Shown in pieces: positions 16,232-45,057 of a DNA stretch of 46,804 bases (positions are counted from its first letter, which is position 1; each line of letters opens with the position of its first letter). The DNA is from Candidatus Jorgensenbacteria bacterium GW2011_GWB1_50_10 (GTDB lineage Bacteria; Patescibacteriota; Minisyncoccia; UBA6257; GWB1-50-10). Position numbers and translations under genes: made by a program. The notes beneath the pieces were generated by a model. That model saw nothing but the letters and a program-made list of their open reading frames with translations, was not told the origin of the DNA and made no database searches. The stretch is from assembly GCA_001004105.1 (NCBI GenBank), contig LCQK01000003.1, positions 1 to 46,804 of the forward strand. The letters run 5' to 3'.

Positions 16232-16675
16232 ATGAAAGTAATTTTTCTCCAAGACATCAAAGGCATCGGTAAAAAGTACGACATCAAAGACGTGAGCGAT
16301 GGCTACGCTCGTAATTTTTTGTTGCCGAAAAAACTGGCCGAGGCGGCAACCGGCGCGGCGCTGAAGAGTGTGATGGAACTAAAATCAAAAATGGAAGCAG
16401 AACGCGGAAAGCTTGTTTCGGAACTGAAAGCGGAAGCGGAAAAAATTGGGGGCAGGAAAATTATTTTCAAAGTGAAGACCGGCGATAAGGGCGAGGTATT
16501 TGGTTCGGTCACGGCGCGCGATATCAAAGACGAATTGGAAAAATTAGGCGTTCGTCACGGCGTTGCTGTAATACCTAAACCAATAAAAACCCTTGGTGAA
16601 ACGAAAGTGGAAATTAATTTCGGTGAAGGCGTGAAAACCTCGGTAGACATTTTGGTGGAAAGCGACGAGAAATGA
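16232..16675 (+). CDS. rplI: 50S ribosomal protein L9
   Basis: [40 protein letters not shown]. Confidence 0.95.
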
Positions 16676-16716
16676 TGTCCTCAAAAAACGTCCATATGGA
16701 CGTTTTTTGAGGACAT
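16675..16716. terminator. 42-bp perfect palindrome, probable bidirectional terminator between convergent rplI and rpmA
   Basis: ATGTCCTCAAAAAACGTCCATATGGACGTTTTTTGAGGACAT is self-complementary and contains A6/T6 tracts; also a member of the CATATG palindrome family. Confidence 0.7.
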
Positions 16717-25724: not shown

Positions 25725-25757
25725 TAAATATAGTGAGATCGAACCTCACTATATTTA
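25725..25757. terminator. Strong hairpin overlapping the RAYT stop codon
   Basis: TAAATATAGTGAG-ATCGAAC-CTCACTATATTTA, 13-bp perfect stem. Confidence 0.7.
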
Positions 25758-26486
25758 TTCGAGCGTAATATTTTTAATTTCTTCAAGGTCCATCTCTTTC
25801 AGCCACTTAATCGTGTCTTTCTTGTATTGCTCCGGCCCGCCGAAAAACTCTGTCAAAAATTCTCTCTGCGTCACTGACGGAAAATTCCTTTTCCCGATGT
25901 AGTCGAGATAACTGCTCCACCGATATTTTTCTAAGAATTTCCCCGCTCCCTTCCAATCTATGGTCTTCGCAAGACCATAGTTGTTGCGGCCATAGTTCCG
26001 CCACTCCGGCATAACCAGATCCAACGGATTTAGGTGGATATAGTAAGGAAGATGAATAAAGTGTGATTCTTCGGTAACAGGAATCAACTTATAGCGTCCC
26101 TGAAATAACGCCCCGCTCCGTTTATATCTTTCGTTGAAATATTTTGCGTAACCCATGTTTAATTTTTTGATGAATTTTGTTATCCCGTCATCAGATTTAG
26201 GCTTTATTAGTAGGTGATAGTGGTTTGGCATTAGACAGAAAGCCAGAATTTCAACCAGCAACTTTCTCGGTTTTCTCTCCCCAGCAATATATGGTCTTGC
26301 GATGTCCATAGATTGCTTTTGGCGATTGAAGTAATAAGTGTTGTTATTTGGCGGTTCGAGGTCGTTAAATTCAAAGAGATTATGAACAAACCTGAAGTAA
26401 TCTCTATCGTCCATGAAGATTTTTCTTTTATCAACACCGCGGTTTAGAACGTGATATACATTTCCAGCAACGATTTTTTCTCTCAT
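25755..26486 (-). CDS. REP-associated tyrosine transposase (RAYT, Y1/HUH family)
   Basis: NVYHVLNRGVDKRKIFMDDRDYFRFV...LAFCLMPNHYHLLIKP...: HUH-type HYH motif and family layout. Confidence 0.92.
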   Translation of the reverse strand: MREKIVAGNVYHVLNRGVDKRKIFMDDRDYFRFVHNLFEFNDLEPPNNNTYYFNRQKQSMDIARPYIAGERKPRKLLVEILAFCLMPNHYHLLIKPKSDDGITKFIKKLNMGYAKYFNERYKRSGALFQGRYKLIPVTEESHFIHLPYYIHLNPLDLVMPEWRNYGRNNYGLAKTIDWKGAGKFLEKYRWSSYLDYIGKRNFPSVTQREFLTEFFGGPEQYKKDTIKWLKEMDLEEIKNITLE

Positions 26487-34822: not shown

Positions 34823-35232
34823 TGGTTTCGGTCGTGAGCTTGAGCAAGAAGTTCCGGCCTCTTGAAGCGAAGCTCCGCCGCGCGGGGGAGGCGGCGCTTG
34901 CCCGGCTGAAGTATAAGAGGGCGAACGTTGACGTTTATCTTGTCTCTGACCCGGCTATGAAAAAACTGAACCGCGAGTTCCGGCGGAAGAACAAGGCGAC
35001 CAACGTCTTGAGTTTTAGAGAGCCCGAAAAATTTCCCCACCCCGAAGGCAAAGGACAATATCTCGGAGAAATTTACCTCGCCCCGGAATACGTCAGGAAG
35101 TCGGGCGAAAATTTGGAGCGGCTTTTCCACCACGGCCTCCTGCACCTTTTGGGCTATACGCACAAAAAAAGAAGTGATAGGATAAAAATGGAAAAAGCAG
35201 AAAAATCACTGGAAACATGGCTAATTTCGTGA
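34822..35232 (+). CDS. ybeY: Endoribonuclease YbeY (rRNA maturation)
   Basis: KATNVLSFREPE, LGEIYLAPE, HHGLLHLLGYTH. Confidence 0.92.
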   Translation: MVSVVSLSKKFRPLEAKLRRAGEAALARLKYKRANVDVYLVSDPAMKKLNREFRRKNKATNVLSFREPEKFPHPEGKGQYLGEIYLAPEYVRKSGENLERLFHHGLLHLLGYTHKKRSDRIKMEKAEKSLETWLIS

Positions 35233-36431
35233 CCGGTTTGGACATAGGTTCGTCGCAGATAAAGTGCATCGTCGCCGAAGAAGGCAAAAACAGCCTCTCT
35301 GTCGTCGCGGCCTTGAAGCACCCGTCCTCGGGTCTCCGGCGCGGCGTGGTCGTCGACCAGGAAGAGGCGACTGGCATTCTGCGGGAGCTCGTCCTGGATT
35401 TGCAGAAAATTTCCCGCCGGGCAGTCCACAATGTTTTTGTGAACGTGAACGGTGAGCATATCAAGTCCCGGATTTCCCGGGGCGTTTCCGTTGTCTCCCG
35501 TCCCGACCAGGAAATTCAGGAAGACGACGTAGAGCGCGTCCTCCAAAGTTCCAAAGCCATCAAGGTGACGCCCAATCACTTAGTTCTCCACAACATCGCC
35601 CGCGAATATTTCATTGACGACGTGGGCGACATCCAGGACCCCCGGGGCATGACTGGCAACCGCCTGGAAGTAGCCACTTTAATCGTTGAGGCATTCTCGC
35701 CGCAATTGAATTTGCTGATGAAGACCCTGGAGCGCGTTGGTATCCGGGTCGGCGGCCTTATTTATAATCCTTTAGCCGCCTCGCGGGCGGCTCTCTCCCG
35801 CCGCCAGAAGGATTTAGGCGTGGCGCTCGTTGATCTGGGCTTTGGTTCCACATCGGTCGCCGTTTTTGAGGAAAATAAGCTCGCTTTCGCGAAGACCATT
35901 CCTTTGGGCGTCGGTCATGTGACGAACGACATCGCCATCGGCTTCAAAACATCAATTGACGCCGCCGAAAAAATGAAGCTCACCTACGGCTTCGCGACGG
36001 CCAAGGAAATCTCCCGCAAGGACGTCATCAACCTCGTTGATTTTGACCCGGCCTTGACCGGCGAGGCCTCCAAGCGGTTCCTGGCCGAAGTGATTGAAGT
36101 CCGGCTTGCGGAAATTTTGGACCTCGTCAATAATGAGCTGAAATCCCTAGGCCGTGAAGTGGAACTGCCGGGGGGCGCGGTTTTGACCGGCGGCGGCGTG
36201 AAGATGAAAGGCGTAACCGAGCTTGCAAGAAAAGAACTTCATCTTCCGGTCCATGTCGGTTACCCGGATTTGAGCAGTTTGGAAATTTTGAATCCCACCC
36301 ACAAGGAGTTGCTGGATGACCCGGAGTTCGCGACCGCCGTCGGCCTCCTGCTCTGGGCGAACGCCGAAGGCGGCAGGAGCGGTAGCGGCCTCGGGGGATT
36401 CAAAAGATTTTTCAGGCGTCTCGTGCCATAG
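35217..36431 (+). CDS. ftsA: Cell division protein FtsA
   Basis: GLDIGSSQIKCIVAEEGK, HIKSRISRGVSVV, VALVDLGFGSTSVAVFE, AVLTGGGVKMKGV. Confidence 0.95.
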   Translation: MANFVTGLDIGSSQIKCIVAEEGKNSLSVVAALKHPSSGLRRGVVVDQEEATGILRELVLDLQKISRRAVHNVFVNVNGEHIKSRISRGVSVVSRPDQEIQEDDVERVLQSSKAIKVTPNHLVLHNIAREYFIDDVGDIQDPRGMTGNRLEVATLIVEAFSPQLNLLMKTLERVGIRVGGLIYNPLAASRAALSRRQKDLGVALVDLGFGSTSVAVFEENKLAFAKTIPLGVGHVTNDIAIGFKTSIDAAEKMKLTYGFATAKEISRKDVINLVDFDPALTGEASKRFLAEVIEVRLAEILDLVNNELKSLGREVELPGGAVLTGGGVKMKGVTELARKELHLPVHVGYPDLSSLEILNPTHKELLDDPEFATAVGLLLWANAEGGRSGSGLGGFKRFFRRLVP

Positions 36432-36707
36432 CAATGTCTAAACATTCTTTTTCACAATTGATAATGGAAATTTTGCTCCAAATCCCAGGCGCGAGGGCAC
36501 AGGTGGATAGCGAGAGCTATCCATTGAGCCCGAGCAACGCCGGAGTTGGGCAAAATTTCATTACCGCAGGAGGCGCGACCTTGGCTCGTTTCATCGTTCC
36601 TCCTCCTCAACGCATCGCCTTCGGACTGATGCGTTTCGTCGTCGCGCCTCGCTCCGAGTTCCAAGGTCGCTGCCTTCAATTGCGAAAGGAGAATATTTAG
36701 ACATTGC
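36431..36707. repeat. Structured palindromic element between ftsA and ftsZ (MITE-like or structured-RNA candidate)
   Basis: Terminal IR GCAATGTCTAAA/TTTAGACATTGC (36431-36442/36696-36707), GNRA-loop hairpin TGGATAGC-GAGA-GCTATCCA (36504-36523), AACGCATC/GATGCGTT hairpin with TTCG loop (36609-36635), 10-bp long-range stems. Confidence 0.55.
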
Positions 36708-36712
36708 TGACT

Positions 36713-37900
36713 ATGTCAAAAAGAAGGAGAAAACACCAAAGCAAAAGAACGAAAGCGGCGCGGCCGAGATTTGCGAAAGCCAAACGCGGCGTCACTTTGA
36801 TTAAAGTGATGGGCGTGGGCGGCGGCGGCGGCAACGCGGTTTCCCGGATGATGGAAGGCAACCGCATCCGCGGCGTGGAATTTATGGCGGTGAACACCGA
36901 TGCCCAGGATTTGAATCACACCTCCGCCCATCACAAAATTTACATCGGCAAAGCCCTGACTCGCGGTTTGGGAGCGGGGATGAATCCCGACATCGGGAAG
37001 CAAGCCGCCGAGGAGAACCGTTCGGAACTCATTGAATCCCTGGAAGGGACGGACATTGTCTTTTTGACCGCCGGTTTCGGCGGCGGCACGGGCACGGGCG
37101 CGACGCCGATTATCGCCGAGGCCGCCCGGGAGAAGGGGATATTGACTATTGCGATTGTCACCAAACCCTTCACTTTTGAGGGCGCCGAGCGGGCGCGCAT
37201 CGCCCACGAGGGCTTGGCGAATTTGAAGGATAAAGTTGATGCATTAGTCGTGATTCCGAACGACAGTATTTTCAATCTCATAAATAAGGACACTTCCGTC
37301 GCTCGGGCTTTCGGCTTCGTGGATGACGTTCTGGAGCAGGCCGTGCAGGCGATTACCGAAATCATCAATGTCCCGGGTCTCATTAACGTTGATTTTGCTG
37401 ACATTAAGGCGGTGGTGAAAGACGCCGGCCCCACCTTAATCGGCATCGGCGTCGCCTCCGGCCCCGAGCGCAGTTTGAAGGCCGTGAATTTGGCCTTGAA
37501 TTCCCCGCTTCTGGAAATTTCCGTTGAGGGCGCGAAGCGGGCGCTTTTCTCCATCGCCGGCGGCCGGGATTTGAAAATGTCCGAAGTGAACGATATCGCC
37601 AAAGCCATATCAACCAATTTGGACCCGAACGCGAAGATTATCTTCGGCGCCTACCACGACCGCAACTTGAAGGACAAGGCCCTCAAAGTCACGGTAATCG
37701 CCGCCGGTTTCAACGGCATCCTGGGCGGCACCCGCATGGGCGGCATCCCATCACTTTTTGTTTCGAGTGAACCCAGGAGAGTGCCAGTAATAGAGAATGA
37801 GGACGTCAAAGAAGAGGCGCCGGGACCTAAGGAAAAGAAAACTAAAAAAGAGGACTCCAACTGGGACATCCCCGCGTTTTTGCGGAGGAAACGGCGTTGA
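36713..37900 (+). CDS. ftsZ: Cell division protein FtsZ
   Basis: VGGGGGNAVSRMM, NTDAQDL, GFGGGTGTGATPIIAE. ATG at 36713 preferred over the TTG at 36704. Confidence 0.96.
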   Translation: MSKRRRKHQSKRTKAARPRFAKAKRGVTLIKVMGVGGGGGNAVSRMMEGNRIRGVEFMAVNTDAQDLNHTSAHHKIYIGKALTRGLGAGMNPDIGKQAAEENRSELIESLEGTDIVFLTAGFGGGTGTGATPIIAEAAREKGILTIAIVTKPFTFEGAERARIAHEGLANLKDKVDALVVIPNDSIFNLINKDTSVARAFGFVDDVLEQAVQAITEIINVPGLINVDFADIKAVVKDAGPTLIGIGVASGPERSLKAVNLALNSPLLEISVEGAKRALFSIAGGRDLKMSEVNDIAKAISTNLDPNAKIIFGAYHDRNLKDKALKVTVIAAGFNGILGGTRMGGIPSLFVSSEPRRVPVIENEDVKEEAPGPKEKKTKKEDSNWDIPAFLRRKRR

Positions 37901-43725: not shown

Positions 43726-43741
43726 CCCGGAAAAATCAGTG

Positions 43742-43785
43742 TCCTCAATAATCTTACGCATATGCGTAAGGTTATTGAGGACAGG
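43742..43785. repeat. CATATG-family palindrome, copy P4
   Basis: TGTCCTCAATAATCTTACGCATATGCGTAAGGTTATTGAGGACA, self-complementary except one pair. Confidence 0.75.
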
Positions 43786-43833: not shown

Positions 43834-45057
43834 ATGAATGCAGTAACAAACAAAAAAGTTTTTGTGGCGCTCTCGGGCGGGGTGGATTCATCTGTCGCCG
43901 CCCTCATTTCTCGCGACCAAGGGTACGACGTGACCGGCGTTTTTATGCGCTGTTACAACCTTGACGGCTGTGCCGAAAAAGACGCGGCGGACGCCCGGCG
44001 GGTGGCTTCCCATCTCGGCATTCCCTTCTACAGCTGGGATTTCAAGAAGGAATACAAAAAGCGGGTGGTGGAATATATGGTTGAGGGCTACCGGAGAGGC
44101 GAGACGCCCAATCCCGACGTGATGTGCAACAAGGAAATCAAGTTCGGCCTCTTTTTGGAGAAGGCGCTTGCGCTCGGCGCGGATTATGTGGCGACCGGAC
44201 ACTATACGCGGCGGCTTCCTGCTTCTCATCACCGGGTGTCGCTCCGTTCCAGCGACGGAGCGCACCGCTACGCTCTCGGCGAAAAATCCGCTTCGCGGAG
44301 CCGAGCTTTTTCGCCTCCGAGAGTTGCCGAGAAACAGGAAGCCGCCGCTTGGTCTTTGTTTGAAGCAAAAGACAAAAACAAAGACCAGTCGTATTTTTTG
44401 TGGACGCTTAAACCAGAACAAATTTCGCGGTGCCTTTTTCCGATAGGTGATTATCAAAAAGCCGAAGTGCGGGAGATGGCCAGATATGCGGGTTTGCCGA
44501 CAGCGGAGAAAAAGGATTCGCAGGGGATTTGCTTTTTGGGCAAGGTGACGCTTGCGGATTTTTTGAAAAATTACATTCCCGCCCGGCGCGGGGCGGTTTT
44601 GAGCACGGCGGGCAAGAAAATGGGGGAGCATGACGGGGCGGAGTTTTACACCATCGGAGAACGGCACGTGGGAGTTGCGGTTTCGAAGCCGGTCTACGTC
44701 GCCGAAAAAGACGTTAAAACCAACACATTGGTGATGGCGGAGGCCGGCGATGCAGCACTCTATCGGAAGGAAGTTCAACTTACGGATTTGAATTTCACCT
44801 CGCCGCAACATTCCAACATTCTTAAGAATGTTGGAATATCTGTTTTGGCGCGGGTGCGGTACAGACAGCCGTTAGTGCCGGCGAAATTGGTAATTAGTAA
44901 TTCGCAATTAGAAAATAGGCCAATTACCAATTACCGATTACTATTTTCCGAACCTGTCAAATTTGTGGCCTCGGGCCAATCGGCTGTTTTCTATTCTGCC
45001 GAAGAGCGAGACCTGCCTGCCGGCAGGCAGGTGCTCGGCGGCGGAGTGATTGTTTAA
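43834..45057 (+). CDS. mnmA: tRNA-specific 2-thiouridylase MnmA, with several palindrome-derived insertions
   Basis: VFVALSGGVDSSVAALI, TPNPDVMCNKEIKFG, YVATGHYTRR, NKDQSYFLWTL, KKDSQGICFLG, FYTIGERHVGV. ATG at 43834 preferred over the supplied 43762 start. Confidence 0.95.
   Translation: MNAVTNKKVFVALSGGVDSSVAALISRDQGYDVTGVFMRCYNLDGCAEKDAADARRVASHLGIPFYSWDFKKEYKKRVVEYMVEGYRRGETPNPDVMCNKEIKFGLFLEKALALGADYVATGHYTRRLPASHHRVSLRSSDGAHRYALGEKSASRSRAFSPPRVAEKQEAAAWSLFEAKDKNKDQSYFLWTLKPEQISRCLFPIGDYQKAEVREMARYAGLPTAEKKDSQGICFLGKVTLADFLKNYIPARRGAVLSTAGKKMGEHDGAEFYTIGERHVGVAVSKPVYVAEKDVKTNTLVMAEAGDAALYRKEVQLTDLNFTSPQHSNILKNVGISVLARVRYRQPLVPAKLVISNSQLENRPITNYRLLFSEPVKFVASGQSAVFYSAEERDLPAGRQVLGGGVIV

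Follow-up and report, generated by a model that had tools for sequence, protein, structure and literature searches.

The spacer between ftsA and ftsZ of Candidatus Jorgensenbacteria bacterium GW2011_GWB1_50_10 (the source genome) is very probably an old, non-autonomous copy of a small palindromic mobile element that inserted there and whose family is widespread. The window, that is, the whole stretch of DNA analyzed, comprises 46,804 nucleotides of this genome, whose size of 0.7 Mb, like the patescibacterial matches, agrees with the CPR label used in the original prediction. Within it, a terminal inverted repeat (TIR) of 19 nt with 95% identity (36430-36448/36690-36708) encloses a 279-bp element and is extended inward by a 12-nt CAATTG-containing pair (36450-36461/36676-36687). 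The left TIR overlaps the ftsA stop codon TAG (36429-36431) by two bases, and the right TIR ends 4 nt before the ftsZ ATG. The original prediction, made from the letters of the window, had described an inverted repeat of 12 bp, which is indeed present but longer, as given above. The CAATTG continuation of the outer stem that it had named was recovered, as were all of its internal stems (GAAATTTTGC/GCAAAATTTC and the two apical hairpins, one with a GAGA loop) and both of its overlapping 10-bp complementarities (36570-36579/36641-36650 and 36575-36584/36661-36670). The features are collected in Table 1.

Table 1. Host genes, palindromic element, and open frame at the ftsA-ftsZ junction (window positions)
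Feature	Position	Strand	Basis or remark
ftsA, upstream host gene	35217..36431	+	Pfam
Whole palindromic element, MITE-like two-arm form	36430..36708		TIR; missing from relatives' spacers; aligns over its full length with the G114 and G127 elements
Left outer arm, TIR AGCAATGTCTAAACATTCT... to CAATTGA	36430..36461	+	Same TIR (GCGATGTCTAAAC) in G114 and G127
88-codon frame, TIR-borne ATG to just before ftsZ	36434..36700	+	Candidate ribosome bridge from ftsA to ftsZ
Arm 1, long hairpin, core partly decayed (AGGCGCGA ... GAGCAACGCC)	36462..36567	+	R1 match 36463-36567(+)
Arm 1 core, 5' strand AGGCGCGA	36487..36494	+	
Arm 1 apical hairpin TGGATAGC-GAGA-GCTATCCA	36504..36523	+	Predicted fold, repeat search
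Arm 1 core, 3' strand GAGCAACGCC	36532..36541	+	
Arm 2, long hairpin, core well kept on the - strand	36567..36675	-	R1 match
Arm 2 core, 3' strand GAGGAGGAGGAACG	36595..36608	-	
Arm 2 apical hairpin AACGCATC ... GATGCGTT	36609..36635	-	Predicted fold, repeat search
Arm 2 core, 5' strand AGGCGCGACGACGA	36636..36649	-	
Right outer arm (TIR), reverse complement of the left arm	36676..36708	-	Repeat search
ftsZ, downstream host gene	36713..37900	+	ATG at 36713, alternative TTG at 36704 possible; Pfam

The ftsA-ftsZ spacer measured about 1-40 bp in most of 28 same-family relatives, with a few at 50-170 bp and with G035, whose FtsZ is the closest, at 11 bp; the element was absent from all 28 junctions read. 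Given these mostly short spacers and the absence of the element from them, the element of the window represents an insertion. Other palindromes, with CCCGTTAGA...TCTAACGGG ends, were seen at the ftsA-ftsZ junction of two relatives (G013, locus L040; G039, locus L043), indicating that this junction accepts such elements, and palindromes with the same ends also occur in the source genome (G000 C1:61620). The closest copies of the window element were located in G127 (C5:22384-22651) and G114 (C3:42965-43230), both with the TIR GCRATGTCTAAAC in common with the window. Whole-length alignment with the window element gave scores of 194.5 for the G127 copy (shuffled mean 92.6, sd 10) and 192.5 for the G114 copy (shuffled mean 90.7). 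The G114 copy lies between genes reading as rplP (L16) and rpmC (L29), and, on this sequence reading, it has landed in an essential-gene operon, as has the window copy. In G127 (L244, reverse strand), the element is preceded by a frame of 423 codons that resembles a conjugation/FtsK-type ATPase; the stop codon of this frame seems to come from the TIR (TCTAAACTAA), and the insertion may therefore have determined where the gene ends.

The conserved core of the family, GGCGCGACGACGA-hairpin-GAGGAGGAGCAACG, was first recognized by comparing the BLAST matches in G027 and G005. The BLASTN comparison within and between genomes suggested along with the original prediction yielded no second copy in the source genome and a weak match in the relative G027, which pairs with both window arms, one per strand. 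In the source genome, 17 near-matches to the TIR (at most two mismatches) were counted, including the two ends of the element, versus 11 in the reversed control, which is about chance level. Across the genome collection, the exact core pattern was found in at least 115 stretches, several genomes having more than one copy, and the lineages concerned were Omnitrophota, Elusimicrobia, Eisenbacteria, Myxococcota, Binatia, Gemmatimonadota, Acidobacteria, Planctomycetota, Burkholderiales, Nitrospirae, and three CPR lineages. It was absent from the viral contigs searched, and a Burkholderiales element had two partial matches in plasmids. Most of the exact matches sit within TIR-bounded palindromes whose stem sequences differ yet covary; these measure about 150-180 bp in the one-arm form (e.g., with CTAGTGTCCCG ends) and about 265-300 bp in the longer form.

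Because the exact pattern fixes the core, an independent covariance model (R1) was trained on 69 sequences, none of them from the window or from any family genome. R1 matched arm 2 at 36567-36675(-) with 46.5 bits (E = 4.9e-10) and arm 1 at 36463-36567(+) with 40.7 bits (E = 2.2e-8), and over the 675-kb source genome it found these two arms and no further element, the next match having an E-value of 0.72. Matches to R1 were obtained in 82 of 390 genomes (the source genome and its relatives), with the + arm followed by the - arm in approximately 38 of 60 loci; G114 (about 620 kb) harbored six elements, all of them two-armed and in this order. The window element fits the two-arm plan of the family (core on + and then on -, one TIR, about 250-300 bp), and several copies were present in many relatives, the family being dispersed over many loci and phyla. 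In addition, six CPR elements (L238, L243, L252, L255, L154, and L207) form a TIR subfamily, AGGAGCGCAGGATTCGAACC, that is close to the complement of the tRNA T-arm GGTTCGAATCC; an origin at tRNA genes, or chance, is possible.

Folding against shuffled controls supported the earlier view of a highly structured element, with a minimum free energy of -122.4 kcal/mol on the + strand (shuffled mean -81.7, z = -7.84) and -134.9 kcal/mol on the - strand (shuffled mean -83.8, z = -9.66), and none of 200 shuffles was as good on either strand. The predicted fold is a three-way junction composed of the outer TIR stem, arm 1, and arm 2, in which the two long hairpin arms carry the core in opposite orientations. 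Arm 1 of the window element lacks part of the core and has Watson-Crick GGGC/GCCC pairing there instead. On the + strand, arm 2 is predicted to be closed by GCGACCTTGG/CCAAGGTCGC, at the position of the covarying stem of the family. The two 10-bp stems, previously described as mutually exclusive, do overlap but are not of equal standing, as one of them closes arm 2; the other, which uses a core strand, looks like an incidental competitor in this folding model. The competing stems are thus better read, as far as the predicted fold goes, as one arm stem and a chance competitor rather than as a riboswitch-like pair.

Within the core, RNAalifold and single folds placed GC-GA-C-GA-C-GA opposite GA-G-GA-G-GA-GC, a pairing read as three tandem G-A mismatches with single C-G pairs between them. 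By analogy with known RNA and DNA motifs, these mismatches would be sheared G-A pairs. The core positions on the opposite strand would be T-C mismatches, and consequently each strand obtains one well-formed core from the two inverted arms. Paired cells amounted to 82.8% with the named structure versus 61.6% in shuffles, the covariation score was 0.514 versus 0.166 in shuffled and 0.109-0.157 in slid controls, and changes on both sides were found in 19 of 24 pairs, figures for covariation that are inflated by related rows, a relatedness that the slid controls retain. Owing to the exact-pattern seed, the invariance of the core in A1 and A2 is partly circular. Judging from these alignments, the fold is maintained across the family by compensatory change. 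As a plain miniature inverted-repeat transposable element (MITE) needs its ends only, complementarity retained along stems of variable sequence suggests a role for the folded strand as such.

Regarding mobility and a possible target-site duplication, the window element is flanked by TA on the left and TG on the right. Elsewhere, the repeats at the ends were TA/TA in some copies from CPR and Omnitrophota, and Elusimicrobia copies had TAA/TAA or TTA/TTA. TA repeats presumably point to IS630-like transposases and TNA repeats to IS5-like ones. DDE_3 (IS630) was detected in 10 of the 390 genomes, including 4 of the 82 carriers, with no association (Fisher P = 0.23), and was absent from the source genome. 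Y1_Tnp, detected in 164 of the 390 genomes, was not enriched either (36/82 carriers versus 128/308 others, P = 0.71). With no significant co-occurrence in either case, the IS630 and Y1 transposases were both rejected as the driver. No TIR-flanked transposase was found in the genomes searched, and the search for an autonomous same-TIR partner in nine genomes (G127, G114, and seven more) returned element ends and two lone partial matches, and such a parent may be missing from these genomes; in Omnitrophota G042 and G043, paired TIRs were about 285-360 bp apart, i.e., element-sized. The one Y1_Tnp gene of the source genome lies in the window (25755-26486, - strand, 243 aa, Pfam E = 2e-11) and is IS200-like and of RAYT type, with a perfect 15-bp hairpin (AAATATAGTGAGATC...CACTATATTT) near its 3' end.

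The element would have arrived as DNA, probably mobilized by a transposase supplied in trans that acted on the TIR, and its copy in the source genome, now single and with one core decayed, is probably immobile. With the core oriented oppositely in the two arms, either strand, when single-stranded or transcribed, should offer one well-formed tandem G-A core. This core is probably the part that is recognized, by a transposase or a host protein, or protected against nucleases.

The 88-codon frame (Table 1), the sole long frame inside the element, had no Pfam match and no transposase domain. In all three same-TIR copies, a TIR-borne ATG at the stop of the upstream gene opens a sense frame through the element (88 codons in the window, 77 in G114, and 85 in G127). 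At the core, the window frame is out of register by one base with those of G114 and G127, and the peptide is therefore not conserved. The excess of open frame over shuffles was modest (mean z = 1.3 for 43 related elements), many family members have no such frame, and the difference in openness between sense and antisense was weak (Wilcoxon P = 0.03, n = 28 related elements). The TIR-borne frame possibly keeps the operon translated through the element, an idea drawn from three loci, of which G114 and G127 are close homologs. Under this hypothesis, the ATG at the upstream stop and the open frame would allow translation and transcription to continue to ftsZ, and may be the reason why the element is tolerated in an essential operon.

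The original prediction had offered two explanations, a structured RNA controlling ftsZ and a MITE-like insertion. As a cis-acting structured RNA (leader, attenuator, or processing signal), the element would control ftsZ via its alternating stems, in keeping with the very stable fold on both strands, the overlapping 10-bp stems, the end of the element 4 nt before the ftsZ ATG, and an AAAGGA that is mostly paired in the predicted mRNA fold and would be freed if the 88-codon frame were translated. However, none of the 28 relatives carries the element at this junction, its homologs adjoin unrelated genes, and Rfam gave no match. Moreover, Shine-Dalgarno signals were found at 28 of 301 genes and at 28 of 301 control positions (with naive gene starts), and this lack of enrichment in the source genome leaves no Shine-Dalgarno signal to mask; masking of AAAGGA may accordingly mean nothing, gives no support to control of ftsZ, and was rejected. 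An ftsZ-specific RNA was likewise rejected as the main reading, since relatives have no element at ftsZ, and such control is judged quite improbable, with an exapted secondary regulatory role being possible. The element looks like an insertion tolerated by the operon rather than a dedicated ftsZ regulator. The MITE-like alternative, in turn, agrees with the absence of the element from the spacers of relatives, with whole-length homologs, TIR included, at other loci, and with a dispersed family spanning multiple phyla.

Among mobile elements, one of REP/REPIN type, moved by an IS200-like tyrosine (Y1/RAYT) transposase recognizing a folded single strand, would match the two inverted hairpin cores per element, the conserved structural core beneath variable outer stems, and the occurrence of Y1_Tnp genes in the window and in many of the genomes; it is nevertheless unlikely in view of the long TIRs, the direct repeats (TA or TNA) that border several copies, the lack of Y1_Tnp enrichment among carriers, and the absence of a GTAG tag on sequence inspection. 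It is highly unlikely that the 88-aa frame is a small protein-coding gene and the functional unit, with the palindromes incidental: the frame does cover nearly the whole interval between the ftsA stop and ftsZ, and the G114 and G127 copies are also covered by open frames, but the missing Pfam match, the one-base shift at the core, the many family members devoid of such a frame, and the conservation of pairing rather than protein all oppose it. Chance inverted repeats or an assembly artefact, to which the single copy in the source genome and its draft assembly of 10 contigs might point, are contradicted by the z values of -7.8 and -9.7 and refuted by the independent R1 matches to both arms and the whole-length homologs in other genomes, leaving this explanation with practically no weight.

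The insertion of a mobile palindrome is of a general kind already known, namely MITE-like palindromes, including ones inside operons. Chunjie elements of Geobacter uraniireducens (Chen 2008) are 178-235 bp long, TIR-bounded, and mostly intergenic, and Chunjie-1 lies in a phosphate-uptake operon, one copy of which it disrupts according to a review (PMC10969869). The window element resembles them in being short, TIR-bounded, and of a mostly intergenic type, and its location at ftsA-ftsZ is comparable to that of Chunjie-1 in an operon. The title of the 2008 Chunjie paper reportedly has the element in the phosphate-uptake operon without disturbing that operon. By description, the window family differs from Chunjie in that its inner stems covary over phyla around a conserved core, one core occurs under many TIRs, and the parental IS was not found. 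Correia elements (NEMIS) of Neisseria are MITEs that are co-transcribed with their neighbors, the transcript being cut by RNase III at the TIRs (PMC10969869); compared by description only, they are reported from Neisseria, whereas the core here is multi-phylum. REPs are 20-40 bp long with stems of 5-13 bp and a terminal tag, GTAG or CGTC, and share with the window element the hairpin units, often head-to-head, CGTC REPs also occurring without a dedicated transposase (PMC3733652). The window element differs from REPs and REPINs in its long TIRs, arms of about 100 nt, and tandem G-A core, and CGTC REPs were rejected as the same family on size, tag, and stem lengths. Rickettsia palindromic elements (RPEs) are palindromes of about 150 bp whose frame stays open on insertion (PMC10969869), but their insertions are intragenic and code for a conserved peptide, whereas the window frame is intergenic and its peptide not conserved. 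Rfam had no match in the window (best sub-threshold score 13.6 bits, cut-off 60) or at the homologous elements scanned, and identified only tRNAs elsewhere. No paper describing the core was found in a search that excluded most subscription literature, so an earlier description (e.g., among unnamed single-genus repeats) is possible; the core-bearing palindromic family is apparently undescribed.

The presence of one core in CPR bacteria, Omnitrophota, Elusimicrobia, Myxococcota, Gemmatimonadota, and Burkholderiales points to a common mechanism of recognition or protection, for which the material searched holds no name. A broader model, possible rather than probable and put forward tentatively, would describe pan-bacterial mobile palindromes defined by the tandem G-A core and not by their ends: the ends would be exchanged among several transposases (TA- and TNA-type), selection on the folded strand would keep the stems complementary, and in some copies the start codon and frame of the TIR would permit settling in essential operons (ftsA-ftsZ, rplP-rpmC). 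The mobile-element reading accounts for a feature that would otherwise be mistaken for an ftsZ riboswitch, R1 demonstrates that such insertions can be annotated, and the candidate bridging frame makes the tolerance of reduced genomes toward insertions between essential genes testable.

Further palindromes were observed in the source genome. A second three-way-junction family has four copies (G000 C1:202880-203060, C1:223100-223290, C2:173850-174080, and C2:15742-15800), with the form GTGAGCGAGC-hairpin-AAAGCGAGCGAAGG, inner GTCTGRCG ends, and variable complementary outer stems, and can likewise be read as tandem G-A pairs. At 31 sites, including 16675-16716 and 44810-44837 of the window, there are perfect even palindromes of 26-48 bp, which group by their centers into 14 with CATATG (often TCCCATATGGGA), 6 with CTTAAG, and 4 with CGCGCG. 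Perfect palindromes of this length are uncommon, and weak hairpin-nuclease (SbcCD) activity might explain them. In addition, a long near-perfect palindrome, TGTCCTCAATAATCTTACGCATATGCGTAAGGTTATTGAGGACA, lies at about 43740-43785 of the window, with TGTCCTCAA ends in common with the palindrome at 16675-16716.
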